Part shown: piece by piece, positions 3,911 to 60,884 of the stretch
Layout: each line of letters opens with the position of its first letter
Position numbering within the stretch: position 1 is the first letter of the stretch
Assembly (NCBI GenBank): GCA_007095785.1
Contig: SFBL01000004.1
Coordinates: 1 to 64,000 of the forward strand
Length of the DNA: 64,000 bases
From: Microcystis aeruginosa Ma_SC_T_19800800_S464
GTDB lineage: Bacteria > Cyanobacteriota > Cyanobacteriia > Cyanobacteriales > Microcystaceae
Reading direction: 5' to 3'
The notes under the pieces: model-generated
What the model saw: the letters and a program-made list of their open reading frames with translations, nothing else
Database searches by the model: none
Told to the model about the DNA's origin: nothing
Made by a program: the position numbers and the translations under genes

Positions 3911-3935
3911 GAGTTTTAAGTGTACAGTATTAAAT

Positions 3936-4145: not shown

Positions 4146-4217
4146 AATAGAAGTTTCCTACTGTCTTTTCACTGATTACGTTTACTGATCACAGCAAAAA
4201 AGTTGGCTGCTCCCCGT

Positions 4218-5297
4218 TTAATTTAAATCCTGAAAACCGACACTGCTGGCAAATCCTGTAATTCCGGTCATCTCCTCACTACTGTTGGCATCGAGGAAAC
4301 GATCCAAGTCATCGAAAGCGGTTCCGTAGGTAATAGTGTTATCGTCGTATCCTTTCAGACTGACGGTATGTTGATCAAAAGCTTGGTGGAGATGGGGTAA
4401 ACCGATGAGATAACTGTAGGTAGTTGTTCCGATAGCTAAATCCCTACCCATTTCTTTAGTAGCCGACTCTAAACGAAAAGCGGCGTTGACCGTATCGCCG
4501 ATCGCCGTATAATCTGGATGTTCACCGCTGCCAGTATTGCCCACCATGGCATAACCGGTATTCACTCCCGCACCGATGCGTAATGTAAAGGGTAAGGGAT
4601 ATTCTTCGCTTAAGACGCGGGTCATCTTGTATATTTGGCTAATTGCTTCGAAAATTTGCAAGATATCGTCTTGATTGACTTCCTGTTGACCGTGAAACCA
4701 GATGGCCATGATCGCATCACCAATATATTTATCTACCCAACTGCCGGAACTGCGGATAATACTCCCGGCATGGCGAAACCAATTGCCAATCAGAGAAGAA
4801 AGCACTTTTTCGTCTAATTGCCTCGTTAAAGCCGTAAAATTTCGTATATCCACCACCATCACCGATGTTAAGCGACGTTCATGGAGGGGCGAGGTGGGGG
4901 TATCCGATTCTAAATTGCGCGGTTGCTTGCCTATATTAGTGGGAGTAGGACGATGGAACTGCACTGCGGTTTTGCCAAAGGTGATCCGATCTTTGTCATG
5001 GATAGTCACGGGAATAGAGACCCTTCTGCCATTAACAAAAGTTCCATTGCGACTACCGAGATCGATCAGATAAAAATCTCCTGTTTCCGTGGATTGTAAA
5101 ATAGCGTGATTGCGGGAGATACAGTGATCTTTAATGACGATATCGTTATCTTTGCCCCGTCCGATTGTCCAGCAAGGTCTCCCCACGAGAGGGAAAAAAC
5201 GCTCTCCCTTCTCGGTATGGAGTAGTAAATAAGGATTTTGTCCTAGTATATCCACGGGTAGATCAGCAGTAATAGATGGGTGATAGTAACTACACAT
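4218..5297 (-). CDS. FHA domain-class III adenylate/guanylate cyclase
   Basis: 359 residues. It makes cAMP or cGMP from the nucleoside triphosphate; the FHA domain binds phosphothreonine peptides and probably localises or gates the enzyme. The FHA domain is at about residues 20-116 (TIGRGKDNDIVI, SRNHAIL, DLGSRNGTFVNG). The class III cyclase domain is at about 140-310, with metal-binding Asp in VVDIRNFT (D150) and KYIGDAI (D194), and the transition-state pair N271/R275 in DTVNAAFR. No membrane segment is seen, so it is cytosolic. I chose the ATG at 5297 because GAGG lies 9 nt upstream; a GTG four codons earlier is also possible. The distinction between cAMP and cGMP is not resolved. Confidence 0.88.
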   Translation of the reverse strand: MCSYYHPSITADLPVDILGQNPYLLLHTEKGERFFPLVGRPCWTIGRGKDNDIVIKDHCISRNHAILQSTETGDFYLIDLGSRNGTFVNGRRVSIPVTIHDKDRITFGKTAVQFHRPTPTNIGKQPRNLESDTPTSPLHERRLTSVMVVDIRNFTALTRQLDEKVLSSLIGNWFRHAGSIIRSSGSWVDKYIGDAIMAIWFHGQQEVNQDDILQIFEAISQIYKMTRVLSEEYPLPFTLRIGAGVNTGYAMVGNTGSGEHPDYTAIGDTVNAAFRLESATKEMGRDLAIGTTTYSYLIGLPHLHQAFDQHTVSLKGYDDNTITYGTAFDDLDRFLDANSSEEMTGITGFASSVGFQDLN

Positions 5298-5371
5298 TTT
5301 ATACCTCACATTCCAGACATTTTCATATATCTAAGTAGGTAGGTAGAAATGGGAATTAGCCAGGAAAACCC

Positions 5372-6073
5372 TTAGGCCAGAGAAGCGGTAATCCAAAATA
5401 AACCATCGACTAAAATTGTACTCAATACGGCTCCGCTAAATGCCCACCAATAGTATAACCGTTTTTGCAAAGGATAGATACCGATCGCTAAGAGCAGGTT
5501 GAGCAGCACGATCGCCCAACTGATGCCCCAGGGGGTCTGAATTTGGGCCAAGGCGTTATCAAATATCGGTGCTACTAGGTTGGGGTCTAGTTCCACGGTC
5601 ATCAATTGTCGCCAGTAGGGAATTAGTCCCGTTAGATAGAAATATAGGTCGGTGATGGCGGTTCCTAACAAAGAACCGAGATAGAAAAGATTGCCCACTT
5701 TGCCGCGACCTTTGCATAATCCCCAGAGAACAAAGGGCAGCCCGATCGCTTCCATGGGAATATGGATCAAGGGTTCCCAACGCCACCAACCCCAGTACAG
5801 AGAACCGGCTAACCAACTCCAACTAAAGCCCAAAAGTAAATCCCCCCAAAGACTGATTTTTGCTTGTTTGAGCAGCCAAATCCCTAAACCCACCCAGAAA
5901 ACGGTTAAACCTAGGCTAATTTCGGGATAGTAGCGCACTAGGGGCGCTTGTACGAACACGGGGACTGATACCAGAAATGCTGCTGTCCAAAAGACGGATT
6001 GACATTTTTCCCAGTTAGGGACTAGGGGTTTCAGGCGATCGGAATTGCTGGGGACTAGGGTAGAGTTGAGCAA
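5372..6073 (-). CDS. Conserved cyanobacterial membrane protein (DUF3120-like)
   Basis: 233 residues, largely hydrophobic with about six predicted transmembrane segments, for example around residues 28-45, 50-67, 75-93, 130-150, 185-203 and 210-230. The pattern (WGDLLLGFSWSWLAGSLYWGWWRWEP) resembles the DUF3120 family, found almost only in cyanobacteria and of unknown function; I hold this name with moderate confidence. The only in-frame start near the 5' end is TTG at 6073, because a TGA lies three codons upstream. It is on the same strand as the cyclase gene with a 74-bp gap, so cotranscription is possible. Confidence 0.7.
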   Translation of the reverse strand: MLNSTLVPSNSDRLKPLVPNWEKCQSVFWTAAFLVSVPVFVQAPLVRYYPEISLGLTVFWVGLGIWLLKQAKISLWGDLLLGFSWSWLAGSLYWGWWRWEPLIHIPMEAIGLPFVLWGLCKGRGKVGNLFYLGSLLGTAITDLYFYLTGLIPYWRQLMTVELDPNLVAPIFDNALAQIQTPWGISWAIVLLNLLLAIGIYPLQKRLYYWWAFSGAVLSTILVDGLFWITASLA

Positions 6074-6236
6074 AGTATTTCAGAATTGTTACAAAACTTT
6101 ACTTATATTAAGATACATCATTCTCTTTCTACTATATCCCCCCTAGGGGGATTTGGGGAAATTAAAAAATTGTTTTTGGCAATGCGCTATCCTGTTAGAA
6201 TCGAAACGACAGCAGCGATCGAGGAGTGCAAAAAAT

Positions 6237-6905
6237 ATGGCAGCGGGCCATGAAGAAAATCCGAGAATGCCCCTAGATAAAGTTATTTTTGTCATTGCTT
6301 GCGTCTATCTAGGTTGGGTGGTGGCATGGCTAATCAGTCAAAAAAATGCCCCTGTCTCTCAAAATGGCCCGATTTCCCAGGAAGAGCAAAAGTTTATCGC
6401 CTATCTGCAATCATCCCTTGCTATTATCGATCGCCAAGGTCAAACTTCATCCCCCGATCCTGATCCTGATCCCCAAAATAACCCTTCTCCGGTAGCCACA
6501 GTTCCACCACCACCCCCTGCTAATTTACCGGTTAATAATAGTCCCCAGATCATAGAAAGAATTTACGTTCCCGTTTATCCCCAAACTCCTCCAACTACCG
6601 CCAAACTTGTCCCGGTTACACCCCCAAATCCCGACATTTCCGCGCCACCATTACCGGCTGCCCCCCAAGTGAATCGGCCGTTGGCAGCGGTTATTCCTAC
6701 CAATAATCAGGTTAAAAATACCCTGGTGGGGGTGATGGATTTAGGCGATCGATCTTCGGCTTTATTTGATAATAAGGGGATAACTATGCGTATTTCTCCG
6801 GGGGAATTTATCAACGGTTGGACTTTAGTGGAAGTTGGTAGTCAACAGGTTATTTTGTCTCGCAACGGGCAAACGAAAGTCTTAGAAGTGGGACAATCTT
6901 TTTAG
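6237..6905 (+). CDS. Membrane-anchored proline-rich protein, GspC/PilP-like C-terminal segment
   Basis: 222 residues from the ATG at 6237, preferred because GAGGAG sits 11 nt upstream; an upstream TTG frame exists but lacks a site. The order is a short cytosolic N-terminus, one transmembrane helix (about residues 16-35, VIFVIACVYLGWVVAWLIS), a long Pro/Asn-rich periplasmic linker (about 65-155), and a compact C-terminal domain (about 165-222). That domain contains TLVGVMDLGDRSSALF and GWTLVEVGSQQVILSR and ends KVLEVGQSF. The layout resembles GspC or PilP-type secretion and pilus proteins, where such a domain links inner- and outer-membrane parts. This is an analogy, and I do not recognise a named family. 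The gene stands alone. Confidence 0.7.
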   Translation: MAAGHEENPRMPLDKVIFVIACVYLGWVVAWLISQKNAPVSQNGPISQEEQKFIAYLQSSLAIIDRQGQTSSPDPDPDPQNNPSPVATVPPPPPANLPVNNSPQIIERIYVPVYPQTPPTTAKLVPVTPPNPDISAPPLPAAPQVNRPLAAVIPTNNQVKNTLVGVMDLGDRSSALFDNKGITMRISPGEFINGWTLVEVGSQQVILSRNGQTKVLEVGQSF

Positions 6906-7083
6906 GGTGAACTACCCGCTGGTCCAGATTGTCGGGGCTTCTGAACTCACGGGGGAATGCCTGAAGATAGACTTACGCCCACCTTGCGGATTTGGTATGA
7001 TAGAGACAATTAGAACAGGTTTGAGAACTAGGAAAAAATCTATCAATCTCCATTAATAAAACACCTTATTGACAAACATTTTG

Positions 7084-7845
7084 TTAACGAAGAAAATAAA
7101 CTGTAGCGGTAATAATACTCAGAATTACCACAGTCCAGCGCAGATAACTAGGAGAGATAATTCTAGCTAGTTTTCCACCCAATAAACCCCCAATTAAAGA
7201 GCCAATTGCTATCACTATCGCCGCCGACCAATATACCTGATTAGAAAAGAGAAAAAACCAAGATGCCGCCACGTTAACCACCAAAGAAAGCAACTGTTTT
7301 AAAGCATTTAATCTCGTGAGATTATCCTTGAGAAATAAGCCCAAAATTGCCAACTCGATCACACCTAAACCCGCTCCAAAATAACCACCATAAATTGAAG
7401 CGAGAGCGATGGGTAAAACCGCCCAAATTTCTGGGATATTGCCCTTTTTATCTCCCTGTCGCCGCTGCAACCAAGAGCGTAAAGTATCTTGAAAAGCCAA
7501 TAAAGCTGCCGCTAAAAGAATCAGAAAAGGAATCAGGCGATCAAATACTTGATCACTGCTATTTAACAGCAAAATACCACCGATAATGCCGCCAATAACT
7601 GCCGATGGTAGCAATAACTGAATCCGTTTTTGTTGCCCGTGCAGGTCTTTTTTTTGGGCGAGAGTTGCCCCCAGATAACCGGGGCATAAAGCGACGGTAT
7701 TAGTCACATTTGCCATCACCGGTGGGATACCCACCGCCATCAGGGTCGGAAAAGTAATCAGACTACCGCCACCGGCAAGAGCATTAATTAAGCCGGCAGC
7801 GACGGCAGCGATTGCTAGGAAGCCATAGTGAATAGGCGTGAGCAT
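7084..7845 (-). CDS. TauE/SafE family anion permease (sulfite exporter-like)
   Basis: 253 residues with about eight hydrophobic segments, no signal peptide and the family hallmark near the N-terminus ([30 protein letters not shown]). TauE/SafE proteins move sulfur-containing anions or organic acids across the inner membrane; the substrate here is unknown. The start codon abuts the stop of the DUF2854 gene (7846), so the two are translated from one transcript, DUF2854 first. The internal duplication typical of the family shows as a second GGYFGAGLG-type motif around residue 155. Confidence 0.88.
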
Positions 7846-8397
7846 TTAGGGGTTAGGGATAGTAATTAGAGCTAAATCAATTTTTTCCTCGTCAACTTGC
7901 TTAATTTCGGCTCTAATTCCCGGGCCAAAGTATCTTTCAATTTTTTCCTGTTTTGCCAGCCACTTTTCTAGGGGTAAAAGGGGCGATTCAAATTCTAGGG
8001 TGAAACAATAGGCGGAATCCACAGCAGTTTCACGAATTGCCACTAAAGTCGGTCTTTCCTCGTCCGTGGGGCTTAATCCCAGCTTTTCTAGGGCTTCATC
8101 CAGATGCACTTCCTGTCCGTAGCGATAGCGGGTGACATCGTTGCGAAGTTTGGTTTGGGTGACAGTAGCCTGTTGTTGGCGCAATTGCAAGATTTCGGGG
8201 CTAGTGGGTTGACTGAAGGGTATAGGTTTGATTTCTGAAGCTTTTAGGGCTAAACCTCCCAATAATAACGGTAATCCGTAGAAAAACCCCGCTAAATTGA
8301 CCGTGGCGTTACCTTGGGCATAACCGATAATCCCGATAACCGTTAAAATACTGCCTAAAATTAAGCCAAAGTATGATAGTCTAATTTTTCTGAGCAT
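7846..8397 (-). CDS. DUF2854 protein of cyanobacteria and plastids
   Basis: 183 residues. Two N-terminal transmembrane helices (about 8-26 and 32-50) are followed by a soluble domain with LDEALEKLGLSPTDEERPTLVAI and a C-terminal part LEKWLAKQEKIERYFGPGI. This matches the DUF2854 family found in cyanobacteria and nucleus-encoded plastid proteins, with no assigned role. It is the first gene of a two-gene unit with the TauE-like permease, whose ATG follows without spacing. The pairing does not by itself assign a function. Confidence 0.82.
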   Translation of the reverse strand: MLRKIRLSYFGLILGSILTVIGIIGYAQGNATVNLAGFFYGLPLLLGGLALKASEIKPIPFSQPTSPEILQLRQQQATVTQTKLRNDVTRYRYGQEVHLDEALEKLGLSPTDEERPTLVAIRETAVDSAYCFTLEFESPLLPLEKWLAKQEKIERYFGPGIRAEIKQVDEEKIDLALITIPNP

Positions 8398-45666: not shown

Positions 45667-46158
45667 ATGATTATTCGCGAGGCTAAAGAAACAGATTTAC
45701 CAACAATTATCGAGATTTATAATGCTGCTGTTCCCACTCGCAAGGCAACCGCAGATTTAAAGCCGATTTCCCTCGAAAGTCGGCGAGAATGGTTTAAAAA
45801 GCACGATCCTGAACAGTATCCCATCTGGGTAATAGCGGTCGAAGGTCAGGTGGTGGGTTGGCTGAGTTTACAGATGTTTTATGGTCGTGTCGCTTACCAA
45901 AAAACCGCAGAGGTTAGTTTATACATTGCCCCCGATTATCAAGGTCGTGGAATCGGTAAATTATTAGTAGAATATGCCCTGAATTGCTGTCCCAAATTGG
46001 GTATATCTAATCTTATCTGTATTATTTTTGCCCACAATCAAGCCAGTATTCGTCTCTTTGAAAAATTCGGCTTTCAACGATGGGGTTATTTACCTCAAAT
46101 TGCCGCTCTAGACGATTTTCTGGCTGATGTGGTCATTTTAGGGAAAAAAGTCGCTTAA
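45667..46158 (+). CDS. GNAT N-acetyltransferase, phosphinothricin acetyltransferase-like
   Basis: 163 residues. The GNAT fold is complete: the acetyl-CoA motif YQGRGIGKLLVEYAL at about residues 95-110 and NQASIRLFEKFGFQRWGYLP near the C-terminus. It resembles phosphinothricin (PPT)-type acetyltransferases, which acetylate small amines; the true substrate cannot be stated. It is convergent with the CyRepA1-like gene and their coding ends overlap by 4 nt (46155-46158). Confidence 0.88.
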   Translation: MIIREAKETDLPTIIEIYNAAVPTRKATADLKPISLESRREWFKKHDPEQYPIWVIAVEGQVVGWLSLQMFYGRVAYQKTAEVSLYIAPDYQGRGIGKLLVEYALNCCPKLGISNLICIIFAHNQASIRLFEKFGFQRWGYLPQIAALDDFLADVVILGKKVA

Positions 46159-49100
46159 ATAGGCAATTTCTCCATAGGGAGACTAAATTCTAGACTTAAT
46201 TGAATATAAGCATTTTCTGATTCGTCTAGAGATGGTTTCTGGGTGAGAGAAAAGAGATAGTCTTCATACCAAATCTCAGAACTTCCCGCACATTTTTCGT
46301 CTCTAAATAACCATTGTTGAAACACTTGTTCTCTACCATCCTGAGGGGCAACAGTCTGATAAACTTTTAGAGATTTTTTAGCAATTCTCAGGCTGCCCTT
46401 GCTGATTAATTCATAACCTAACAAGTTCAAACAATTACGAACAATCGTCAGAGGACGGGAAGTATTAGAAAGATTAATCTTGGTGATAGTTTTAATCTCG
46501 TTACGGTTTTTAATGGCGATTTCGGCCATTTTTTGTAAATCGGCATCATGATTAGTTAATTCTCTTTCAGGATTAGCTAATAATACGGGAATTCCTAACA
46601 CTTCTAACGTCCCGATAATCACTCCTAATTGACTACCATTAAAATCAGGAATAAATAAACTTCCCTGACCTGATTCTATCAGTTTACGCGCAATTAAAGC
46701 ATCTCGATCGCACAAAAATTGTCGCCCAATTGTCAAAAAGTAATGTAAGCGTAGTTCTTGATACCATCCCTGATCGTCTTTAATCACTAATTGCGGTGTG
46801 ACGGGGATTCCATAGCGTTTGTACAGGTCATATTTCCTGATAATTCTCCTTTCTTTCACTGACTTAATTAACTGTTTTTTCAGCAGACGATATTCTGAGT
46901 CCGTTATCTCGGCTGCGCTGGCAATTGCCTCGCATTCAGAACGATAATTATGTTCCCTAATTTCCTCAATTGCTTCCGTTAACTGATTATTTATTTCTAG
47001 TTCTTCTTCCTGATTCCGTTCTTTAATTCTATGACCTTCTGCTTGTAAAATTCCTAGAATTGACTGACGATAATTAAGCATATAAGCATTGACTCGCACA
47101 GCCATTTTAGCCCAGCAGAGGAGAGATTCCGCTTGAAAACTTGTATCTAAATCCTCTAGAGATTCTAAATCTGATTGGTGTAGTAAGCGAATATTAACCT
47201 CCGTTAATCGGTGTCCAGAGGTGAGAAGTTTGGGGATAGAAGTGGAACCATTGCCCACCTGATTAAATCCGTAGGCTGCTGACCAAATATAACGAGGAAT
47301 ATTCTCCCTAATTCTCCCTAAAAATTGAGCGATAGAAGTGGGAGTTTGAATCCCCTGTGCTAAACACCAAACCGAGGTAAAGTGTTGCTGAAGATCAATA
47401 CTAATTCCCGTTTCGATCGCTGGACTAGCTAGAACTATATCATAGTTAAGCAACAACTGATTTAAATTGCCAATCGCTTGATAGGCAGCGTGACTAGAAT
47501 CTTGCAATGACTCTGAATCTATCCGCAGAACTTTCTTTTGAGGAAATTGCTTTCTTAGATAGGATTCTAGGGTTATCGTCCCCCATTTGCTGGTTAATTT
47601 TTGTGCCGATAGACAAACAAAAGGTTTTCCTCCCTCTTTAATATGTTTGACTAAATCCTTAACTAGCTGTTGGGGAGTATTATCAGAGTAGTTATAAACT
47701 CTCCAAGCTTCCTGATAACTAGGTTTCCACTCGTTACTAATTAAAAAATTTTCTAGTTTAATCGCCGCTAGAGAAGTTAAATATTCTAGGGAAATATCAC
47801 TTAAATCAGCATCAGCAACTAGGACTTTACCCCCACTGCTGACCACAGTTTGCAGCAGGGCTTTTAGGGATTTTAAAATTGCCACACGATTAGTTTTACA
47901 AGTATCCCCATTTAACCCATGCCATAGAACTTGTTCGATCTCATCAATAATAATGATAGCTCCTTGCCAATCTTCCGCTTGAAATTTAGCTTGTGATTGG
48001 GGATGGAGAGAGTCAATACATAAACCATAACCGTAAATTTGTGCCGCAGGATTATCTCTAACTTTGCTAATATAGTTTAAACCAAAGCGTTGACATAACT
48101 CCTCTACCAGTTTCACCCGATGACCAATAACTAAAACTTTTTGTTGATTGGCAATAGCCTGTTTAACTATCTTGGACAAAAACTCAGTTTTTCCCGTACC
48201 TTTAGCAGATTTAATCGCCATTAACTGCGCTGATGTAGGGATAGAAATATCTGGCAAGTAACGGCTATTTAACTCTAGATGAGGTGGGAGAGTTAAACTA
48301 TTTAAACTCGCTGCCTTCCAAATTTCCCAAGAGGTAGCTTTTTGATAGACTTGTTGGAAGTAATCTTCCCCTCGATTGATTAGTAAATCATCCACCCCTT
48401 TACCGTCAGCAGCATCCCAAGTAACTACCTTTACCTCACAGTTAGCATGAGTGAATAGATAACCCATTCTCTGTAAAGCTAAATTAACCGCTTGTTGGTT
48501 CTTTGGTTTAGTTTCTTGATCAAAAACTAGATAAATCTTTCGTCCGGAATTAGCTAATTTTTCTAGCTGCGGAATTAGATGAGATTTGCCGATTCTCCTA
48601 CCTAGTTCGTCCTTGGGAGTACGATAACCATTGTGAATCCCTGGTAAGGCAATTGTCACATAACCTGCTGTTAGTAATGCCCCCGCTTTTTTCGCTCCTT
48701 CCGTAAGACAAATAGGTATCTCTGGATGTTTAATTACCCAAGACCAAAAACCGAGATCCTCTTGCTTATTATCCACTTCTTCAGTTAAAATATTCATATT
48801 GATACGCTGGGCTATCCTTTGCCAAATTTTCAGGGGAACCCGCAAAGCAAAGACTCCCGTAGGGGTTTGGGGAGGATGTTCGTACTTAATCGGTTTATCC
48901 TTATCGAAGCTTAAACGGGGAAAATCGGGCTTAAAACAGCCCCAAAGGTCATAATTACCCGTTAATAAGTCAATTCCTGAACACCACCAACCCCCTTGAC
49001 TGGTATGTTCATAACGCTTGAGAATACTATCCCTAACCCTGCCATCATTGCGTCGCGGTAATTCTTGGGAGTAGAGTAGGTATTCACTGGGAGATAACCC

Positions 49101-49175
49101 CGCTAAACCGGTGACATTGAGTTCGATTAACTCCGCATCCACCCCGCTACTACGCCATTCTTCTAAATATTTCAT
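46155..49175 (-). CDS. CyRepA1-type plasmid replication protein (DUF3854-helicase)
   Basis: 1006 residues. A DUF3854/TOPRIM-like primase region lies at about 150-270 (TEGAKKAGALLTAGYVTIAL, metal-binding DQE near 219). A superfamily helicase part follows with Walker A KGTGKT at 325-330 and Walker B IIIIDEIEQ at 408-416. Proteins of this type are replication initiators of small cyanobacterial plasmids, combining priming and unwinding. On a chromosome it marks an integrated plasmid or a replicon-like island. No parA/parB or iterons are seen. Divergent nrdA lies 451 bp away, and a 16-bp palindrome sits 20 bp before this start. The 3' end overlaps the GNAT gene. Confidence 0.8.
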   Translation of the reverse strand: MKYLEEWRSSGVDAELIELNVTGLAGLSPSEYLLYSQELPRRNDGRVRDSILKRYEHTSQGGWWCSGIDLLTGNYDLWGCFKPDFPRLSFDKDKPIKYEHPPQTPTGVFALRVPLKIWQRIAQRINMNILTEEVDNKQEDLGFWSWVIKHPEIPICLTEGAKKAGALLTAGYVTIALPGIHNGYRTPKDELGRRIGKSHLIPQLEKLANSGRKIYLVFDQETKPKNQQAVNLALQRMGYLFTHANCEVKVVTWDAADGKGVDDLLINRGEDYFQQVYQKATSWEIWKAASLNSLTLPPHLELNSRYLPDISIPTSAQLMAIKSAKGTGKTEFLSKIVKQAIANQQKVLVIGHRVKLVEELCQRFGLNYISKVRDNPAAQIYGYGLCIDSLHPQSQAKFQAEDWQGAIIIIDEIEQVLWHGLNGDTCKTNRVAILKSLKALLQTVVSSGGKVLVADADLSDISLEYLTSLAAIKLENFLISNEWKPSYQEAWRVYNYSDNTPQQLVKDLVKHIKEGGKPFVCLSAQKLTSKWGTITLESYLRKQFPQKKVLRIDSESLQDSSHAAYQAIGNLNQLLLNYDIVLASPAIETGISIDLQQHFTSVWCLAQGIQTPTSIAQFLGRIRENIPRYIWSAAYGFNQVGNGSTSIPKLLTSGHRLTEVNIRLLHQSDLESLEDLDTSFQAESLLCWAKMAVRVNAYMLNYRQSILGILQAEGHRIKERNQEEELEINNQLTEAIEEIREHNYRSECEAIASAAEITDSEYRLLKKQLIKSVKERRIIRKYDLYKRYGIPVTPQLVIKDDQGWYQELRLHYFLTIGRQFLCDRDALIARKLIESGQGSLFIPDFNGSQLGVIIGTLEVLGIPVLLANPERELTNHDADLQKMAEIAIKNRNEIKTITKINLSNTSRPLTIVRNCLNLLGYELISKGSLRIAKKSLKVYQTVAPQDGREQVFQQWLFRDEKCAGSSEIWYEDYLFSLTQKPSLDESENAYIQLSLEFSLPMEKLPI

Positions 49176-49626: not shown

Positions 49627-52600
49627 ATGCAATCGAAGCCCTTGACTACTGCCGTCTCCATTCAGAAAAATAACGAAGTAATACCCTTTCGTTCTACCCC
49701 TTTAGCTAATATGGGCAGCCATGGAATTAGAGTGATTCGGCGCGATGGTTCCACCACAAGCTTAAATATCGGCAAAATTCGCGACGTGGTAGAGTGGGCT
49801 TGTGAAGGTAAAAAAGTCAATTCTATTGCCCTAGAAGCCGGTTTAACCACACGCCTGCGGGATGGGATTACCACTAGGGAAATACAGGATAATTTAATCA
49901 ATTGCGCCCTAGAAATGTGTAGTCCAGAGGAACCAGATTGGCGCTATGTGGCGGGAAGATTGCATATTTGGAGTCTGTGGAAAGATACCTTAGTAGTCCG
50001 GGGTTATCAGTACGGAAATTACGAGAAGACTGTCAAAACTCAAGTTAAAAATCGGCTGTACGACGAAAGGATTCTCATCTATTCTGAGGCAGAATTAAAA
50101 GAAGCTGGTTCTTGGATTAATCCCGATTGGGATATCGATTATGATTACGCCGGGGCATTGTTAATCACTAGCCGTTATTTACTCAAAAATGAGTTACCCC
50201 AAGAGGCATTATTAACCTGTTCCCTACTGCTTGCCAGTGTAGAAGAACCTGCTAATAGACTCTACTGGGCGAAGAAATTTTATCAAGGGATTGCCCAAAG
50301 AAAAATCTCTCTTGCCACCCCAATTTTAGCCAATTTACGCACGCCTAAAGGTTCCCTAACCAGTTGTTTTATTCTCTCTATTGACGACAGTTTAGAAAGC
50401 ATTTTCGGCGAGATTACTAATGCTGCCCGCATCTCTAAAAACGGTGGCGGTGTCGGGGTGAATGTGAGTAGAATTCGCGCCACTGGTAGCTGGGTAATGG
50501 GGAAAGCTAATGCTTCTGGTGGGGTTATTCCTTGGATTAAATTACTCAACGATACAGCTATTGCAGTAAATCAGGGGGGAAGACGCGCGGGGGCAGTAAC
50601 TATCGGTGTTGATATCTGGCATTTAGATGTGCCAGAATTTCTGGAAATGCAGACAGAAAACGGTGATCAAAGACGCAAAGCTTATGATATTTTTCCCCAA
50701 TTAGTTATCACCGATGAATTTATGCGTCGGGTGATAAATAAAGCCGAGTGGACATTAGTAGATCCCTACGAAGTTCGCACAAAATTAGGTATAGAATTAG
50801 CGGAACTATGGGGGGAAGAATTTGAAGAGGCTTATCGTTTAGTAGAAGCTAATTTAGATAAAGAGATTGTCCTCTATAAAAAAATCAATGCCCGGGACTT
50901 ATTTAAAAGTATCATGCGTTCTCAAGTAGAAACAGGAATGCCCTACATTGCCTTCAAAGATACCATTAATCGCGCTAATCCTAATAAACACGATGGCTAT
51001 ATCCCCGGTGTAAATTTGTGCGTCGCGGGAGAAACAAAAATTCTTACGGACCGAGGACAAATAGCAATCGCTGATTTGGTGGGGGAATATGTTAATGTCT
51101 GGAATGGATTGGAGTGGTCAGAAGTATTAGTTAAAAAGACTGGAGAAAACCAGCCTTTATTAAAGGTCAATTTCTCTAACGGAGAGGACTTGGAATGTAC
51201 TTACTACCATAAGTTTTACGTTCAGAAAAACTACAAGGGAACCGTGGAAATTGTCGAGGCAAAAGACCTCAAACAAGGAGATAAATTAATTAAATACCAG
51301 CTGCCTCTCATCCAGTCAGAAAATGATCTTGACTTTCCCTACGCCTACACCGCAGGATTCTTTTCTGGAGATGGGAGTTACGGAAACAATGGAATGCCAG
51401 AAGTTGACCTATACGGAGTTAAAAAAGAGTTACTTCCCTTATTGGCTATTCGTAACAAATATCGGGGAAATGGCTCGATTGAAAAAGGTACTTTTTGGAG
51501 AAAAGAAACCGATACCCTAGGGGTATATCATGACAGTAAACAAGATCGAATCGTCTGTAAACTCCCGTTAGATATTCCCAGTAAATTTACAGTTCCTCTC
51601 AATGGTTACACAATTAAATCTCGTTTAGAATGGTTAGCTGGTTTACTTGATGCCGATGGAACAGTTGTCCGCAATGGTTCTAACGAGTCTCTCCAGATTG
51701 CTGCTGTTAACCGGCAATTTTTGCTCGATATTCGCCTAATGTTACAGACTTTAGGAGTTGATTCCAAAGTTACTTTTATGGATGACGGTGGCTATAAATT
51801 GATGCCAAATGGAAAGGGAAATTATCAAGAATATCTCTGTCAACCAAAATATCGTTTACTGATTAATTCTGTCGGACTATTTCAAGTTGGTCAATTGGGA
51901 CTTAAAACCCATCGCTTACAATGGACTTTAAAAGAACCCCAACGTTCGGCCACTCAGTTTATCCGCATTGAATCGGTAGAGTTAACCTGTCGTCGAGATG
52001 ACACCTACTGTTTTACAGAACCCAAGCGTCATCTGGGAATGTTTAACGGCATTCTAACAGGACAATGCACCGAATCTTTTAGCAATGTCACCCCCGATAA
52101 AACTGCCCATTGCTGTAATTTAGTTAGCCTTAATTTAGCCAATATCGACAGGGAAGAAATCGAGTCTAATTGTCAAATCGCTGTCAGGATTCTCGACAAT
52201 ACTATCGATATTACTAATCCTCCCTTTGATAATGCTAAAAACCACAACGATAAATATCGCACTATTGGGGTAGGGGCGATGGGATTGGCTGACTGGTTAG
52301 CTAAACGGAAATTATCCTACAATAACCTGTCAGAAATTAGTAATTTATTTGAAGAAATTGGCTATTGGTGTACCTATTCTTCGATGGAATTAGCCAAAGA
52401 ACGCGGCGCTTATCAAGCTTTCTTGGGTAGCGAATGGAGCCAAGGTAAATTAATCGGTGCCAAACCAGTGGAATGGTTTTTAAATAACGCAGTGCAACCG
52501 CAAAGATGGCAACAATTAGCAACAGATATTCAAGAATTTGGCATCCGTAATTCCCATATTACCGCCATTGCTCCTAATACTTCCTCCAGTTTGGTACAGG

Positions 52601-52986
52601 GATGTACCGCTAGTGTTTTGCCGGTTTATAGTCGCTTTTTCTACGATAAATGGGCAAAAGGAACTGTTCCCATCGCACCACCTTTTATTGAAGAAGCTTT
52701 CTGGTTTTATCCGGAGAATAAAAATCTTGAACAGCAACAAGTGGTAAAAGCGATCGCTACTATGCAAGAATGGATTGATACGGGGATTTCTATGGAATTA
52801 TTATTCAACCTCAATGAAGGGGTTTACTTTCCCGCAGAACCTAACCGTTGTCTCACTGCTAAAGATATCTTTGATACCCTAATCATGGCGTGGGAATTGG
52901 GGTGTAAAGCGATTTATTATATCCGTACCGTACAAAAGGACAATTTTCGAGAGTCTGACGATAGTTGTTCTAGTTGCGCTAATTAA
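49627..52986 (+). CDS. nrdA: Ribonucleoside-diphosphate reductase alpha subunit with intein (class I)
   Basis: 1119 codons; removal of a 349-residue intein (465-813) leaves 770 residues. The enzyme reduces NDPs to dNDPs with the radical-generating beta subunit. An N-terminal ATP-cone (about 33-100, IRVIRRDGSTTSLNIGKIRD) gives allosteric control. The 10-stranded barrel follows with the reductant Cys in LTSCFILSIDDSLESIFGE. The intein is inserted right before the Cys of CTESFSNV, which corresponds to the thiyl-radical Cys in SNLC-type motifs of other RNRs. The C-terminal CSSCAN is the redox tail. Candidate NrdR boxes precede it. Five DUF29 genes separate it from nrdB. Confidence 0.94.
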   Translation: MQSKPLTTAVSIQKNNEVIPFRSTPLANMGSHGIRVIRRDGSTTSLNIGKIRDVVEWACEGKKVNSIALEAGLTTRLRDGITTREIQDNLINCALEMCSPEEPDWRYVAGRLHIWSLWKDTLVVRGYQYGNYEKTVKTQVKNRLYDERILIYSEAELKEAGSWINPDWDIDYDYAGALLITSRYLLKNELPQEALLTCSLLLASVEEPANRLYWAKKFYQGIAQRKISLATPILANLRTPKGSLTSCFILSIDDSLESIFGEITNAARISKNGGGVGVNVSRIRATGSWVMGKANASGGVIPWIKLLNDTAIAVNQGGRRAGAVTIGVDIWHLDVPEFLEMQTENGDQRRKAYDIFPQLVITDEFMRRVINKAEWTLVDPYEVRTKLGIELAELWGEEFEEAYRLVEANLDKEIVLYKKINARDLFKSIMRSQVETGMPYIAFKDTINRANPNKHDGYIPGVNLCVAGETKILTDRGQIAIADLVGEYVNVWNGLEWSEVLVKKTGENQPLLKVNFSNGEDLECTYYHKFYVQKNYKGTVEIVEAKDLKQGDKLIKYQLPLIQSENDLDFPYAYTAGFFSGDGSYGNNGMPEVDLYGVKKELLPLLAIRNKYRGNGSIEKGTFWRKETDTLGVYHDSKQDRIVCKLPLDIPSKFTVPLNGYTIKSRLEWLAGLLDADGTVVRNGSNESLQIAAVNRQFLLDIRLMLQTLGVDSKVTFMDDGGYKLMPNGKGNYQEYLCQPKYRLLINSVGLFQVGQLGLKTHRLQWTLKEPQRSATQFIRIESVELTCRRDDTYCFTEPKRHLGMFNGILTGQCTESFSNVTPDKTAHCCNLVSLNLANIDREEIESNCQIAVRILDNTIDITNPPFDNAKNHNDKYRTIGVGAMGLADWLAKRKLSYNNLSEISNLFEEIGYWCTYSSMELAKERGAYQAFLGSEWSQGKLIGAKPVEWFLNNAVQPQRWQQLATDIQEFGIRNSHITAIAPNTSSSLVQGCTASVLPVYSRFFYDKWAKGTVPIAPPFIEEAFWFYPENKNLEQQQVVKAIATMQEWIDTGISMELLFNLNEGVYFPAEPNRCLTAKDIFDTLIMAWELGCKAIYYIRTVQKDNFRESDDSCSSCAN
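51019..52065 (+). mobile_element. Intein with LAGLIDADG homing endonuclease inside nrdA
   Basis: 349 residues in frame. It starts at C465 (CVAGETKILTDRGQIAIADL, the N-terminal splicing block) and ends MFNGILTGQ before C814 of the extein. The DOD endonuclease motifs are AGFFSGDGSYG (block C) and LEWLAGLLDADGTVV (block E), so it may still home. The last residues are Gly-Gln instead of the common His-Asn; terminal Gln occurs in some known inteins and can still splice. Excision joins VNL to CTES, restoring the RNR active-site sequence. The insertion point is the catalytic Cys codon, where intact versions cannot be inherited inactive. Confidence 0.92.
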
Positions 52987-53079
52987 GGTTAACTTCGGTG
53001 GGCAATGCCCACCTTAATTTTTTTTACATCAAAGATTAGGACTGATAAAATGAGTTTTATTAATCACCTAATCACAGCT

Positions 53080-53541
53080 ATGGATAAGACCTTATACGAA
53101 CAGGATTACTATCTCTGGATAGAGAAAACCATATCTTTACTAGAAAATCGCCAGTTTTCTGATTTAGATTTAGATAATCTCATCGAGGAGATTAAAAGTA
53201 TGGGTATTAAGGAAAAACATACGTTAACAAGTTTATTGACTAGAATAATCCAACATTTGCTGCAACTTGCTTATTGGCAATCGGAACGTCAATATAATGC
53301 TAATCACTGGAAAGGAGAAATTACTATTTTTAGAATTGATTTATGGGAAGTTCTTGATGATAATCCAAGTTTAAAGTCCTATCTAGAGAATAGTTTTGAT
53401 AAATGTTATCAGTCAGCCCTTCGTATCCTAGCTAGAAAAATGGGAGTAAAAATCAGTACTTTGCCCACGGAAAAAATTCTCACTCTTGCCCAAGCTTTAG
53501 ATGATGATTGGTTTCCTGAATATGAGGATAATAATCATTGA
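53080..53541 (+). CDS. DUF29 family protein, tandem copy 1
   Basis: 153 residues from ATG 53080 (MDKTLYEQDYYLWIEKTISL); starts at 53050 or 53005 are possible but give extensions not shared with the sister genes. DUF29 proteins are small helical proteins of unknown function, highly expanded in some cyanobacteria. The family core is visible: LYEQDYYLW, LDLDNLIEEIKSM, HLLQLAYWQSE and the final DDDWFPEYE. This is the first of five head-to-tail DUF29 genes between nrdA and nrdB. It begins 93 bp after the nrdA stop. Confidence 0.86.
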   Translation: MDKTLYEQDYYLWIEKTISLLENRQFSDLDLDNLIEEIKSMGIKEKHTLTSLLTRIIQHLLQLAYWQSERQYNANHWKGEITIFRIDLWEVLDDNPSLKSYLENSFDKCYQSALRILARKMGVKISTLPTEKILTLAQALDDDWFPEYEDNNH

Positions 53542-53579
53542 TGATTTGGTTGGATTATAGTTAATTAAGGTGAGGGACT

Positions 53580-54056
53580 ATGGAAAAAAAAATATACGAA
53601 CAGGATTACTATCTCTGGTTAGAGAAAACCATATCTTTACTAGAAAATCGACAGTTTTCTGAATTGGATTTAGAAAATTTAATTGAAGAAATAAAAGATA
53701 TGTCCAGAAGAGAACGTCAGAAGTTAGAGAGTTTACTAACTAAACTCTTGGAACATTTACTTAAATTAACTTATTGGCAATCTAAGCGCAATTACAATAA
53801 AAACAAGTGGCGACGGGAGATTTTAAATTTTCGCATTCAAATAAAAAGAATTATTAGCAACAAAAAGGATGGAACTTATAATACAAACTTAGTATCTTAC
53901 CTCACCGAGATTCTTGAGCAATGTTATGAGGATGCTTGCCATCTATTTGTCGAAGGTTCTGGCATCGATAAAAGACTTTTAAGTTCTACACCTATTGGAG
54001 CAATCGACCAAATTTTAGATGAAAATTGGTTTCCTGAGTTTCTCGGAGAGGATTAA
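53580..54056 (+). CDS. DUF29 family protein, tandem copy 2
   Basis: 158 residues with the same core (YEQDYYLWLEKTISLLENRQ, LENLIEEIKDM, HLLKLTYWQSK, DENWFPEF). It differs from the others in the middle, where a basic stretch (RIIISNKKDG-like, near residue 95) replaces the shared segment. It lies 38 bp after copy 1 and is likely cotranscribed. No catalytic motif is visible; the function is unknown. Confidence 0.86.
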   Translation: MEKKIYEQDYYLWLEKTISLLENRQFSELDLENLIEEIKDMSRRERQKLESLLTKLLEHLLKLTYWQSKRNYNKNKWRREILNFRIQIKRIISNKKDGTYNTNLVSYLTEILEQCYEDACHLFVEGSGIDKRLLSSTPIGAIDQILDENWFPEFLGED

Positions 54057-54059
54057 GCA

Positions 54060-54512
54060 ATGAAGAGTGATTTATACGAAAAAGATTACTATCTCTGGAT
54101 AGAGAAAACCATATCTTTACTAGAAAATCATCAATTTTCCGATTTAGATTTGGATAATCTCATCGAGGAAATTAGCGACATGGGCAAAAGTCAACGACAA
54201 AGCTTAAAGAGTTATTTAACTCGGTTATTAGAACATTTGCTAAAACTGGTTTACTGGCAGTCGGAATTAGAATATAATCAAAGAGGATGGAAAAATGAAA
54301 TTCGTAACTTTCGCCTACGAATTCAACAAATTATTGAAGACAGTCCCAGTTTAAAGCCCTATCTATCGGAAATTTTCTTGCCCTGTTATCAAAATGCTCG
54401 TAAATTATTTTTGGATCTATCGGGAATAGCTGAAAATTTGGTCAGTTTAGCTCCTATTTGCACTATAGAACAGGCGTTAAATGAGGATTGGTTTCCTGAA
54501 ATATCAAAATAA
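54060..54512 (+). CDS. DUF29 family protein, tandem copy 3
   Basis: 150 residues, 3 bp after copy 2 and 11 bp before copy 4, so probably one transcript. It has the DUF29 core. A block from about residue 55 to 85 (LTRLLEHLLKLVYWQSELEY) and a C-terminal block with LSGIAENLVSLAPICTIEQA are almost the same as in copy 4, which shows recent duplication or gene conversion. The function is unknown. Confidence 0.87.
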   Translation: MKSDLYEKDYYLWIEKTISLLENHQFSDLDLDNLIEEISDMGKSQRQSLKSYLTRLLEHLLKLVYWQSELEYNQRGWKNEIRNFRLRIQQIIEDSPSLKPYLSEIFLPCYQNARKLFLDLSGIAENLVSLAPICTIEQALNEDWFPEISK

Positions 54513-54523
54513 TGGGGATAATT

Positions 54524-54976
54524 ATGGAAAAGAACTTATACGAAAAAGATTACTATCTCTGGTTAGATAAAACCATTAATTTACTGGAAAATCATCAATT
54601 TTCTGATTTAGATTTAGAGAATTTAATTGAAGAAATTAGCAGCATGGGTAAAAGTGAGAAACGAAGTTTAGAAAGTTATTTAACTCGGTTATTAGAACAT
54701 TTGCTAAAACTGGTTTACTGGCAGTCGGAATTAGAATATAATCAAAGAGGATGGAAAAATGAAATTAGGAATTTTCGTCGTGCCATGAAAAGAATTATTG
54801 CCGATAGTCCTAGTTTACAGCTTTATCTCGTTGAAATTTTTAATAACTCTTTTCAAGAAGCTCGTATTTCTTTTATCGAATTATCGGGAATAGCTGAAAA
54901 TTTGGTCAGTTTAGCTCCAATTTGCACTATAGAACAGGCGTTAAATGAGGATTGGTTTCCTAAAATATCAAAATAA
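54524..54976 (+). CDS. DUF29 family protein, tandem copy 4
   Basis: 150 residues from ATG 54524 (MEKNLYEKDYYLWLDKTINL). An in-frame ATG at 54512 overlapping the stop of copy 3 would add four residues; the second ATG after GGGGATAATT matches the sister genes. The first half and the C-terminal block are near-identical to copy 3, while the start of the gene and its upstream ATAATTATGGAAAAG are near-identical to copy 5. It is thus a mosaic of its neighbours. Confidence 0.87.
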   Translation: MEKNLYEKDYYLWLDKTINLLENHQFSDLDLENLIEEISSMGKSEKRSLESYLTRLLEHLLKLVYWQSELEYNQRGWKNEIRNFRRAMKRIIADSPSLQLYLVEIFNNSFQEARISFIELSGIAENLVSLAPICTIEQALNEDWFPKISK

Positions 54977-54987
54977 TGGGGATAATT

Positions 54988-55434
54988 ATGGAAAAGAACT
55001 TATACGAAAAAGATTACTATCTCTGGTTAGATAAAACCATTAATTTACTGAAAAATCGCCAGTTTTCTGAGTTGGATTTAGAGAATTTAATTGACGAAAT
55101 AAGATCCATGTCTATCAGTCAACAGAAAGCATTAAAAAGCAATCTGATCGGGATTTTATGGCATTTACTAAAATACTTACAAGAGCCAGAAAAACAAACC
55201 AGAAGCTGGACATTAACCCTTTTTGAGCATCGCAAAAGAATCGAAGAAGATTTAGAAAATAGCCCTAGTCTTAAGAGTTTTTTAACAGAAGAAATTTTAA
55301 AAAAATGCTATAATAAAGCCAGACAAAAAGCCGCTATTGAAACAGGGATAAACCTAGAGAAATTACCGAAGGATTGCCCATTTACTTTGGCAGAAGCCCT
55401 AGATTTTGAATTTATCCCTAATCAAACCATTTGA
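54988..55434 (+). CDS. DUF29 family protein, tandem copy 5
   Basis: 148 residues from ATG 54988, beginning with the same residues as copy 4 (MEKNLYEKDYYLWLDKTINL). The rest differs: residues 60-140 have WHLLKYLQEPEKQTRSWTL and end with FTLAEALDFEFIPNQTI in place of the usual DDWFPE. It is the last of the array, 53 bp before nrdB. The diverged C-terminus may come from a different DUF29 source. Confidence 0.85.
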   Translation: MEKNLYEKDYYLWLDKTINLLKNRQFSELDLENLIDEIRSMSISQQKALKSNLIGILWHLLKYLQEPEKQTRSWTLTLFEHRKRIEEDLENSPSLKSFLTEEILKKCYNKARQKAAIETGINLEKLPKDCPFTLAEALDFEFIPNQTI

Positions 55435-55487: not shown

Positions 55488-56873
55488 ATGTCCTTACATT
55501 TAGTTAATTCTTGCCATTCGATGCCCATTTCCCCGATCTTCAATCCGGCGGGAGATGATGCGATCGAAAACCGTTCGATCTGGTTTGGTAACACCACCAA
55601 CCTGATGCAATTAAACGATGTCCGCTACACCTGGGCGGTGGGTTTATATCAACAAATGCGCGAAAATTTCTGGATCCCGCAACGCTTAGATATCACCCAA
55701 GACGTGACTGAATACGGGCATCTTACCGACGAAGAAAGATATGCTTATGATGGTATTTTGTCCTATCTAACTTTTCTTGATTCCGTACAAACCTGTAATA
55801 TTCCTCACCTAAAAGGTAGCGTCACTGCGCCAGAAATTAGCCTTTGTATGGCGGAACAAATTTCTCAAGAAGCCATGCACAATCAAAGTTATCAATACTT
55901 AATTGAAACGATTATTCCCTCGGATCGCAGAGGTGAAGTTTATGACTTTTGGCGCACCGATAAAGTTCTCAAGGATCGCTGTGAATTTATTGCTAGTCTC
56001 TACCAGCAGTACATTAATAAACAAACTACTGAAAGCTATTTTATCGCCCTTCTTGCCGATTATTTGCTAGAGAGTTTGTATTTTTATAATGGGTTAAATA
56101 ATGAGGTAGCCCACTAGCATCGTGAGGTGTTAGTTAAAACTCGCCAAATTGCTGGGAAGCCCTAAAGCCCTTAAACCAAAGCGAAGTCTGAAAAGATAAG
56201 CGTAAAGGAGCGAGAGCAGAAAAAAGTTAAGGGATTTAATAAAAGCCGTAAGGCAGCTATTAAAAACAATGGGTAATCAGCAGCCAAGCCTCTATTTTAA
56301 AGGGGAAGGTTCAACGAACAGAGGGTGAGTATCTTCTTGGTAAATACCCTATAAAAGGTTCAAGAAGATAATGGTATGTTCTAGCCCCACTCTGAAAGGA
56401 TGGGTAGTTGCGTCATCTTTTTCTATAATCTCGCTTCTCGACAGCTAATGTCCGGTAGTGCTGACGTTTTCAAAATGATCAACCGGGACGAATTAAGTCA
56501 CGTCCGTTTGTATCAGAAACTTATTCCTGAAGCCATGGCAATTTTTCCCCATTCCGTTGAACAGATTTACGAGATGTTCGATAATGCGGTTAAACACGAA
56601 TGTCGCTGGACAAATCACATTGTTGGCAACGACATTTTAGGTATTACCGAATACAGTACCGAACAGTACACCAAATACCTCGCTAATATTCGACTGAAAG
56701 CGATCGGACTTGAGCCTTTATACAGGGAAGAAAAGTATAACAAAAGTCCCTATAACCATCTGGAACGCTTCTCCGATACCAAAAAAGAAGGCCACACCAA
56801 AGCTAACTTTTTTGAAGCAACCGTTACCAGTTATGTTATGTCTTCTGGCTTAACTGGATGGGATGAAATTTAA
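55488..56873 (+). CDS. nrdB: Ribonucleoside-diphosphate reductase beta subunit, interrupted by a group I intron
   Basis: The mRNA is predicted to be spliced as 55488-56094 joined to 56413-56873, giving 355 residues. NrdB houses the diiron-tyrosyl radical that starts NrdA catalysis. Ligands are visible as D99 (FLDSVQ), E128 and H131 (QEAMHNQ), E195 (LLESLYFY) and the pair in INRDELSHV in exon 2; the radical Tyr is likely Y135 (NQSYQYL). Removing the intron turns NG|L...stop into NGFIFFYNLASRQLM, the expected family sequence. Without splicing, translation stops at 56117. It follows the five DUF29 genes. Confidence 0.93.
56095..56412 (+). ncRNA. Group I self-splicing intron in nrdB
   Basis: 318 nt, no ORF. 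The 5' splice site follows T of GGGT, and exon TGGGT (56090-56094) pairs with intron GCCCA (56109-56113) to form P1 with the required U.G at the cut. The last intron base is G (56412). Core elements are seen: TTGCTGGGAA (P) with ATCAGCAGCC (Q/R region) giving P4, and GGTTCAACGA as the S/P7 type segment near 56308. It would splice out by two transesterifications with guanosine. Subclass was not determined; the lack of a homing endonuclease means it cannot spread by itself now. Confidence 0.9.
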
Positions 56874-58095: not shown

Positions 58096-58233
58096 CCTCT
58101 TGCCTCATCTCAACTGGCAATTTAAATACTTAACAGCTTATAATTGTATTAAGATGTGTAACAATTCTCTGGCAAACTCTTGACAAAGGATAACAAATCT
58201 GCTCTTCCAAAAAAAAGGAAAGGTTTTATTTCT

Positions 58234-58773
58234 ATGACATTGATTCAAACCGCCCAATTATCGCTAGAAACTTTGGCTTTAGCCTTTTTTAAGCAGACAG
58301 AAGGACGCTGGCAATCCCAGAGACGTTATTACACCCTCACCCAAGAAACGGAACCCCAAGAAGTTATCAGCGCCATCGAGATTAAATATTTACCCCAAGG
58401 CAGCGAACCATTAATTCAACTGGCCCGTTTACATCATCTGGAAGATACAACTTTATTAGGTGGTACGGAAGTGACTTGGCAAAGTAATTATCTCCGTCCC
58501 CAGAGTAAAAAACCCTCCAACGGTTCCACTATATTCGGTATTTTAGATAATATTCTCTATCGCGATCGGGGATTTGCGACGGATAAACCCGTTAGTGCCA
58601 TTTATACCTTTCCTCACCCCTCTAGTCTCTGTCTGAGAACAGAATACGCCGGTTCTGTCTTTGAAGAAGAAATTAAACTTATCGGTCAACAATATCGCAC
58701 TCGACAAACTATTATCTCTCGCGCTGGTCAAGAATTGATGATCGGTCAATATCTAGAAAAACGGGTCAATTAG
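58234..58773 (+). CDS. Phycobiliprotein chromophore lyase, CpeS/CpcS family
   Basis: 179 residues from ATG 58234 (MTLIQTAQLSLETLALAFFK), preferred because AGGAAAGG lies upstream and a longer start to 58180 is not shared with the family. CpeS-type lyases attach bilins to Cys of phycocyanin or allophycocyanin beta subunits. The family shows EGRWQSQRRYYTLT, the variable sheet residues and RTRQTIISRAGQELMIGQYLE near the end, typical of the beta-barrel lipocalin-like fold. Whether it is the CpcS or CpcU branch is not resolved. It is on its own; the phycobilisome genes are not in the window. Confidence 0.85.
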   Translation: MTLIQTAQLSLETLALAFFKQTEGRWQSQRRYYTLTQETEPQEVISAIEIKYLPQGSEPLIQLARLHHLEDTTLLGGTEVTWQSNYLRPQSKKPSNGSTIFGILDNILYRDRGFATDKPVSAIYTFPHPSSLCLRTEYAGSVFEEEIKLIGQQYRTRQTIISRAGQELMIGQYLEKRVN

Positions 58774-58860
58774 TCAAAAAAACGGCGGCTACTCCCATAA
58801 TTTTGACTTTTATCCTAGGAATAGGGCTGAAATCAAGTCAGCCCTCCCAATAACTCCCCT

Positions 58861-60343
<1,483 letters not shown>

Positions 60344-60360
60344 TGACGGCAATTCTATCA

Positions 60361-60884
60361 CTGTTGAGGACTGAGGAGATAAAGCTTAAGATTGTTGTTT
60401 GATTAGGCAGTTAGGCTAAAACACACTTAGACCACCTAAAATAGAAATAGTAATTTTAGAAAAATCGGTGGTGATTCAGAAGTAGTTCCGGATAAGCAAT
60501 AGCATATTGTCGAGCAAAGAATGGTAAACTTTTCCATAATTTTTTACCCGATTTATGGCTTCTATTTTTTAGATAAAAACCAATAACTTTTCTGGTAAGT
60601 AGGTGGGTGGAATTAAATATAAGATGAACGTAGAACGTAGGTTGGGTTGAAGCATGAAACCCAACGCCCGCATGGGTTACGCTACCGCTAACCCATCCTA
60701 CAAATAATTGTGCCTCCCTACTTACTTGTATAAATAGCCAACCAAATATATATAGCAGTTCTCACACCTGTGTGGCACACTTAAACCTTTGCTAATTAAG
60801 CTTTTCAACATCGATAATGTACCTAGTGCGAACAGGAAACGCCATAGCTTGATTTTTTGAGAAAATATCAAGAACCACATCTCA
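60361..60884. other. Intergenic stretch, mostly repeat DNA
   Basis: No gene is recognised. It contains the 75-bp inverted-repeat element at 60637-60711 and, farther right, the nested elements from 60885. The left part is the promoter side of thiC. Confidence 0.5.
60637..60711. repeat. 75-bp inverted-repeat element
   Basis: GTAGGTTGGGTT at the left end and AACCCATCCTAC at the right end form imperfect inverted termini. A second internal hairpin has TGGGTT facing AACCCA twice. It has the look of a small cyanobacterial MITE or a REP-type hairpin. No other copy is present in the window. Confidence 0.6.

Follow-up and report, generated by a model that had tools for sequence, protein, structure and literature searches.

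Recombination between tandem DUF29 genes in the nrdA-nrdB interval of Microcystis

Tandem arrays of paralogous genes under concerted evolution show sequence exchange among their copies, along with chimeric genes, variable copy number, and blocks that have been converted. Here, we describe an array with these features, five genes of the family DUF29 (PF01724) that lie between nrdA and nrdB, the genes for the large and small subunits of class Ia ribonucleotide reductase (RNR), in Microcystis aeruginosa Ma_SC_T_19800800_S464. The DNA analyzed (64,000 nucleotides, referred to as the window) belongs to contig 175 of this 4.77-Mb genome of 240 contigs (labeled G000). While the array shares exchange, chimeras, copy-number variation, and converted blocks with concerted arrays in general, it differs from them in that the 5′ ~34 codons are the most strongly converted part and in its position between RNR subunit genes. 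The closest described protein is 3fcn of Rhodospirillum rubrum (PF01724), which is like the array proteins in profile match and helical fold and unlike them in that no arrays or nrdA link are described for it; its annotated function is unknown. No mention of DUF29 (as a whole word) or PF01724 was found in the literature searched, and among works on Microcystis with gene conversion, nrdB introns, or multicopy domains of unknown function no title pointed to this locus. We consider it likely that the array occupies a tolerant, recombination-prone site behind nrdA and that its members are small, all-helical accessory cargo genes.

The DUF29 array and exchange between its copies

A previous reading of the window, made from the sequence alone, had described five head-to-tail DUF29 genes between nrdA and nrdB, with near-identical blocks shared by copies 3 and 4 and identical starts and upstream DNA in copies 4 and 5. 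All of this was confirmed. The five proteins matched PF01724 along the profile, on the same strand, with 139.0 to 162.5 bits (curated cut-off, 22.5 bits), and the open reading frame (ORF) list held no gene other than DUF29 in the array interior. The features are as follows.

49627..52986, + strand: nrdA, class Ia RNR large subunit (Pfam RNR lgN/lgC, ATP-cone, and LAGLIDADG_3)
53080..53541, + strand: DUF29 copy d1, long form (PF01724, 160.1 bits)
53580..54056, + strand: DUF29 copy d2, long form (PF01724, 139.0 bits)
54060..54512, + strand: DUF29 copy d3, long form (PF01724, 162.5 bits)
54524..54976, + strand: DUF29 copy d4, long form (PF01724; body 84% identical to d3 in DNA)
54988..55434, + strand: DUF29 copy d5, short form (PF01724, 159.2 bits; groups in trees with nrdA-linked DUF29 of other genera)
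54210..54302, + strand: 93-nucleotide block, exact match to 54674-54766 (d3/d4; repeat comparison)
54499..54586, + strand: 88-nucleotide block, exact match to 54963-55050 (junction and first 21 codons of d4 and d5)
55488..56873, + strand: nrdB, class Ia RNR small subunit (exons ~55488-56095 and 56415-56873)

The genes are spaced 500, 480, 464, and 464 nucleotides from start to start. The d1 frame is open from an ATG farther upstream (53005), and alternative ATGs of d4 (54512) and d5 (54976) each overlap the preceding stop (TAATG). Besides the 93-nucleotide block, d3 and d4 share a tail block of 80 nucleotides (54418-54497 versus 54882-54961), made of 37 and 42 identical nucleotides with one mismatch between them; these d3/d4 blocks sit in the body of the genes, while the 88-nucleotide repeat covers the copy 3/4 and copy 4/5 junctions. 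Apart from d3/d4 (84%), the bodies of the G000 copies are only 42 to 60% identical in DNA. Between d4 and d5, protein identity is 91% over the first 35 residues and 29% over the body.

Synonymous divergence (dS) separates the two parts of the genes. Between paralogues within genomes, the first ~34 codons gave dS values of 0.12 to 0.88, plus two pairs at 1.18 and 1.57, whereas the bodies of pairs other than d3/d4 ranged from 0.92 to saturated. Between genomes the order is inverted, with orthologue dS of 0.14 to 0.40 in the 5′ block versus 0.06 to 0.15 in the body. Since orthologues are more diverged and paralogues less diverged at 5′ synonymous sites, the similarity of the fronts reflects conversion and not constraint, and codon constraint alone was rejected as its cause. 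The first ~34 codons evolve in concert in all pairs except d3/d4. The ratio of nonsynonymous to synonymous divergence (dN/dS) in orthologue bodies, with hybrids and broken copies excluded, was 0.25 for d1, 0.27 for d2, 0.14 for d3, 0.18 for d4, and 0.40 for d5. These values show purifying selection on the frames within the genus, which implies that the array proteins do something; between genomes the bodies are constrained, not diversifying.

To describe the locus across Microcystis, we used 12 genomes, one per GTDB species; nrdA and nrdB were found in all of them, and the DNA between was read. Counting broken copies, the array holds 5, 5, 5, 4, 4, 3, 3, 3, 3, 2, 1, and 0 genes. Five copies are present in G000, G001, and G007 (the last copy of G007 with a stop) and four in G008 and G010. 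Three were found in G002, G003, G011 (last copy broken), and G006, in which the last copy, before nrdB, is frame-broken and is preceded by ~5 kb of other DNA and a 28-codon DUF29 front fragment. G005 has two copies, the first of them broken, G004 has one, and G009 has none. In G009, nrdA and nrdB are ~2 Mb apart, and similarity to the window ends at 53017, behind nrdA, and resumes at 55484, just before nrdB; three other DUF29 genes, 8.7 to 9.7 kb behind nrdA, match the array at only ~72% in DNA. The layouts of G006 and G009 make the array the breakpoint of two rearrangements. At the G006 locus (L052), genes for a CpeS-like protein, ThiC, and glutamine synthetase (3880-8130) lie between the front fragment and the frame-broken copy, and a segment matching positions 58138-60413, which follow nrdB in the window, has the inverted orientation. 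The expectation of the sequence-only reading that copy number varies thus holds as a range of zero to five; with a single genome per species, the differences are among species and not among strains of one species.

The eight reduced arrays were compared with d1 to d5 of G000, G001, and G007 by cutting each copy into 60-nucleotide windows. The first copy of seven of these arrays had a d1-like upstream flank on another body: that of d2 in five arrays (G002, G003, G006, G010, and G011), a d3-then-d4 body in G005, and that of d5 in G004. The match of this flank to d1 is moderate (47 to 53 of 60 bases), yet it is the best among the five copies. A switch from d3 to d4 occurs inside copies of G003 and G006 (G003_b and G006_b), and from d3 to d4 and back to d3 inside G011_b and G002_b; one front window each of G006_b and G002_b was closest to d1. 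Hybrids of this kind are what tandem copies should yield through deletion and conversion. Because reduced arrays carry chimeric genes, we conclude that array copy number changes by recombination between copies. The mosaic from exchange or gene conversion, proposed from the sequence alone, is therefore upheld by the repeat blocks, the dS inversion, and the window assignment of hybrids.

Age of the array and its linkage to nrdA

The sequence-only reading had described the exchange as recent; a recent origin of the set was not supported. Orthologues of all five copies were recognizable in three of the 12 genus genomes (one with a broken fifth) and of four copies in two more; those of d1 were found in four genomes and those of d2 in nine (G000 included). 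Five distinct orthologues conserved at the locus in many strains would have spoken for an old and stable set. What we found is a full set in a quarter of the genomes, without the stability.

Beyond the genus, we analyzed 38 genomes of the family, all with nrdA. In 20 of them nrdB was within 4 kb behind nrdA, and ten of these gaps contained a same-strand DUF29 gene, plus one with a remnant. Of the other 18 genomes, three of which had <1.2 kb of sequence downstream of nrdA, five carried a same-strand DUF29 gene within 4 kb behind nrdA: G021, G028, and G049, in which nrdB is elsewhere, and G025 and G027, in which nrdB was not found (85% and 79% complete genomes, respectively). Conversely, where nrdB stands apart from nrdA (16 family loci), reading up to 6 kb on either side found DUF29 only in G048, with two genes near nrdB, one of them 128 bases behind it. 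Outside the family, 75 genomes of the order had an nrdB match, and the 44 best-scoring of them were read; nrdA was close upstream in 20, and only one of these intervals (G131) contained a DUF29 gene, of a different subfamily.

In the full-length tree, d5 clustered with the nrdA-linked DUF29 genes of G012, G019, G020, G023, G030, G034, and G038 (support, 0.954), a group that in the body-only tree also takes those of G021, G025, G027, and G028. Compared with the seven relatives of the full-length tree, d5 is 52 to 88% identical over the front 35 residues (the 88% value, from G020, covers only part of the front) and 38 to 57% over the body. After pruning the Microcystis orthologues other than those of G000, the nrd-linked label changed 12 times on the DUF29 tree, versus a mean of 25.9 and a minimum of 20 in 500 shuffles; two of the sequences counted as non-nrd (from G022 and G027) may also be nrd linked, as their contigs are short or end nearby. 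No nrd-linked relatives of the long-form copies d1 to d4 were seen outside Microcystis. The five orthologues in three genomes, together with the grouping of d5 across genera, indicate a set that is old, eroding, and recombining.

Cargo in the slot and alternative readings

DUF29 genes are abundant elsewhere in these genomes. We found 42 matches in G000, fragments included, and 26 to 44 in each of the 12 genus genomes; the family was present in 71 of 194 phylum genomes drawn. Contig 180 (C180) of the same genome carries a second five-copy tandem array with a regular 467-base spacing, so DUF29 arrays are not unique to the nrd locus. It resembles the nrd array in its regular spacing and in fronts more alike than bodies and differs in grouping with other DUF29 genes and in not being at the nrd locus. 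Given such tandem arrays elsewhere, the interval, which had been suggested to be an expansion-prone site, is not the sole one. Nine IMG/VR viral contigs (L079-L087) also encode DUF29 relatives, at 33 to 39% identity.

The surroundings of DUF29 were surveyed from the best 80 of 490 relatives, a choice that favors query-like sequences, at 73 of 77 loci and with two near-identical L221 neighbors omitted. The 138 immediate neighbors elsewhere in cyanobacteria were assigned to 167 Pfam families, the commonest being DUF29 itself (11), PALP and 3′-5′ exonuclease (seven each, apparently one conserved locus), and Uma2 (four). Such varied neighbors indicate that DUF29 lodges beside many unrelated genes and can stay in place at some. 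The slot behind nrdA is itself mixed in content. In 30 nrdA-nrdB gaps of the family (20 non-genus and ten genus, the window not counted), 18 non-DUF29 ORFs of at least 60 codons without masked bases were present, from six gaps. Eleven had a Pfam match: two ParE toxins, two DUF4926, DUF3892, DUF4365, SIR2-like, BRO-N, and the three of G006 (ThiC, CpeS-like, and glutamine synthetase), which were brought by the rearrangement; the other seven had no Pfam match. Nine of 69 ORFs behind nrdA in other genomes, picked from DUF29-bearing genomes, were also scanned and gave two IS200-type transposases, two DUF4926, a desaturase, and AAA_15, with three lacking a match.

The best of five AlphaFold models of copy 3 (mean predicted local distance difference test scores of 67.6 to 91.9, the best 91.9) is all-helical, with helices at residues 2-22, 31-65 (after a loop), 67-94, and 96-121. 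On this model, the homogenized stretch corresponds to helix 1 with its loop and to the beginning of helix 2. A DUF29 profile built from 88 sequences matched 3fcn with an E value of 4.1e-8, and 3fcn also ranked first against the model (Z 12.5 over 140 residues, root mean square deviation 7.6; next best, Z 5.8), at a Z score below the caution level of ~13 for helical bundles and with 3fcn absent from the Foldseek list to E 10. Foldseek gave no match at an E value of ≤0.001 in the PDB or viral models, an absence that excludes nothing. Among the five window proteins, PADLOC (two scanned) returned only a weak Cmr5 match (E 0.0086), NCBIfam (three scanned) only a weak MftR2 match (E 0.051), and PHROGs (three scanned) families of unknown function, including phrog_11797. 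Matches to translin/C3PO-like bundles (Z 5.4 to 5.7) are within the stated noise for helical bundles and were not used. The HEPN RNase motif is R-x4-6-H; in alignment A1, inspected by eye, H59 is conserved with no conserved Arg at the motif spacing, and this inspection lends a HEPN RNase no clear support. The sole clear relative with a structure is of unknown function, and we accordingly favor accessory cargo.

We propose that, in this cyanobacterial family, the slot behind nrdA is an accessory-gene site of long standing. The d5 lineage, a short-form DUF29 gene, was probably there before several genera diverged, judging from trees of uneven support, and it stays behind nrdA where nrdB is elsewhere (G021 and G028). 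In the Microcystis lineage, long-form genes were added beside d5 in one or more arrivals, followed by duplication, d3 and d4 being a duplicate pair. The tandem copies recombine within the first ~34 codons, which are alike and encode helix 1 plus loop, and, in d3/d4, also via the body blocks. Recombination keeps the fronts alike, makes chimeric genes, and leaves five, four, three, two, one, or no copies; the hybrid junctions suggest deletion as the direction of change. The likeliest role would be that of cargo encoded at the RNR locus and not needed by it, like the DUF29 genes beside unrelated genes.

Several observations weigh against this proposal. The fronts of the C180 array (first 114 nucleotides) are 85 to 97% identical versus 70 to 87% for the rest, so part of the front similarity may be family-wide. 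In d3/d4, the dS of the 5′ block (0.50 to 0.88) is not below that of the body (0.40 to 0.58), i.e., there is no front homogenization in this pair. Support for the d5 clade is uneven, since the 0.954 of the full-length tree falls in the body-only tree to 0.285 with G019 and to 0.827 without it, and the 66 non-nrd contrast sequences are a sample (26 from the own genome and 40 from the family). Copies d1 to d4 form one clade in the full-length tree (0.912), which the body-only tree breaks up, placing d1 and d2 among other DUF29 genes of the genome (0.879 and 0.705, respectively); a single expansion is therefore not supported, and more than one arrival is possible. No relative of known function was found in the structure, PADLOC, NCBIfam, and PHROGs searches. 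Finally, the long retention of one DUF29 lineage behind nrdA exceeds what random cargo needs.

An alternative that we regard as doubtful is that the DUF29 proteins encoded behind nrdA act on class Ia RNR as partners or regulators (in assembly or in the nucleotide or damage response), with the array multiplying or diversifying such a regulator. The same-strand linkage in 15 of the 38 non-genus family genomes follows nrdA and not nrdB (G048 alone among the 16 separated nrdB loci), G034 has one of its only two DUF29 matches at the nrd locus, and the purifying selection on array copies fits as well. However, no intact DUF29 gene was found behind nrdA in the other 23 genomes (one with a remnant and three with <1.2 kb downstream), the array is missing from G009 and contains broken copies in four other Microcystis genomes, and outside the family the single case in 20 intervals is of another subfamily, while DUF29 elsewhere adjoins varied genes. 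A direct RNR role for nrdA-linked DUF29 is possible but not favored.

We find it improbable that the array is immunity- or antitoxin-like, i.e., defense-type cargo with a shared front module and bodies diverged against different partners. The front is relatively conserved, with seven of the 11 invariant columns of alignment A1 in the first 37 residues (five of ten in the larger alignment A3), and bodies diverge between paralogues; the slot also hosts ParE-type toxin pairs and SIR2-like and AAA_15 genes, and the phage family phrog_11797 matches DUF29. Against this, PADLOC, with two of the five proteins scanned, gave nothing beyond the weak Cmr5 match, the window array holds no other gene, and the bodies are constrained between genomes. 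Another view, to which we give little credence, is that DUF29 proteins are modular adaptors: helix 1 plus loop (~34 codons) would be a common docking module kept uniform by conversion, the other helices would bind different clients, and the nrdA-linked lineage would dock on class Ia RNR, giving Microcystis a tunable, recombining adaptor set. A fresh, strain-specific amplification of one inserted gene, as near-identical blocks between neighboring copies might suggest, is very improbable given the divergence of all bodies except d3/d4 and was rejected because G001 and G007 have orthologues of all five copies.

Intein, introns, and meaning of the locus

Both RNR genes are interrupted in the window, and a terminator-like structure precedes the DUF29 array.

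~51022-52083, + strand: intein with a LAGLIDADG domain in nrdA (LAGLIDADG_3; intein-less relatives align to 51021 and from 52084)
52997..53013, + strand: perfect, terminator-like hairpin GGTGGGCAATGCCCACC with a T-rich tail (between nrdA and the array)
~56096-56414, + strand: group I intron in nrdB (RF00028, 66.5 bits; cut-off, 50)

The nrdA intein was present in five of the 12 genus genomes and absent from seven (frames of 1125 versus 776 to 780 residues). Group I introns in cyanobacterial RNR genes have already been reported, according to excerpts of PMC3984707. In our genus sample, the nrdB intron, near codon 203, was found in seven genomes and not in the other five. It has a form of ~319 bases in G000, G003, G007, and G010 (56.6 to 67.9 bits). 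In G005, G008, and G011 it is longer and contains an ORF; this form scored 42.2 to 42.7 bits, below the cut-off, yet alignment shows an otherwise identical intron. A GIY-YIG match was obtained for the G008 ORF, with which those of G005 and G011 align almost base for base. With forms with and without this ORF, endonuclease loss or gain is visible within one genus. G001 (L055), without the codon-203 intron, has another nrdB insertion near codon 63, with a subthreshold group I match (31.8 bits) and an ORF that is HNH-like by eye and had no Pfam HNH match; the nrdB matches of G012, G044, and G046 break near codon 63 too.

The hairpin GGTGGGCAATGCCCACC occurs, the same or nearly so, behind nrdA in other genus genomes, also at the G009 breakpoint, and was not seen behind nrdA in G002, G003, G010, and G011. 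The terminator scan gave one terminator-like site versus a mean of 1.3 in shuffles, which is not above chance, and the promoter scan found no excess (ten sites versus 10.0). Upstream of nrdA, on the opposite strand (46155-49175), is a gene for a 1006-residue protein with DUF3854 and a weak ResIII match.

These cyanobacteria have multiplied DUF29 heavily, yet it was not named in the literature searched. The locus offers a compact example of gene conversion that centers on a single protein module, and a lineage tied to an essential gene, together with natural copy-number variants and hybrids, provides a handle on DUF29 function.

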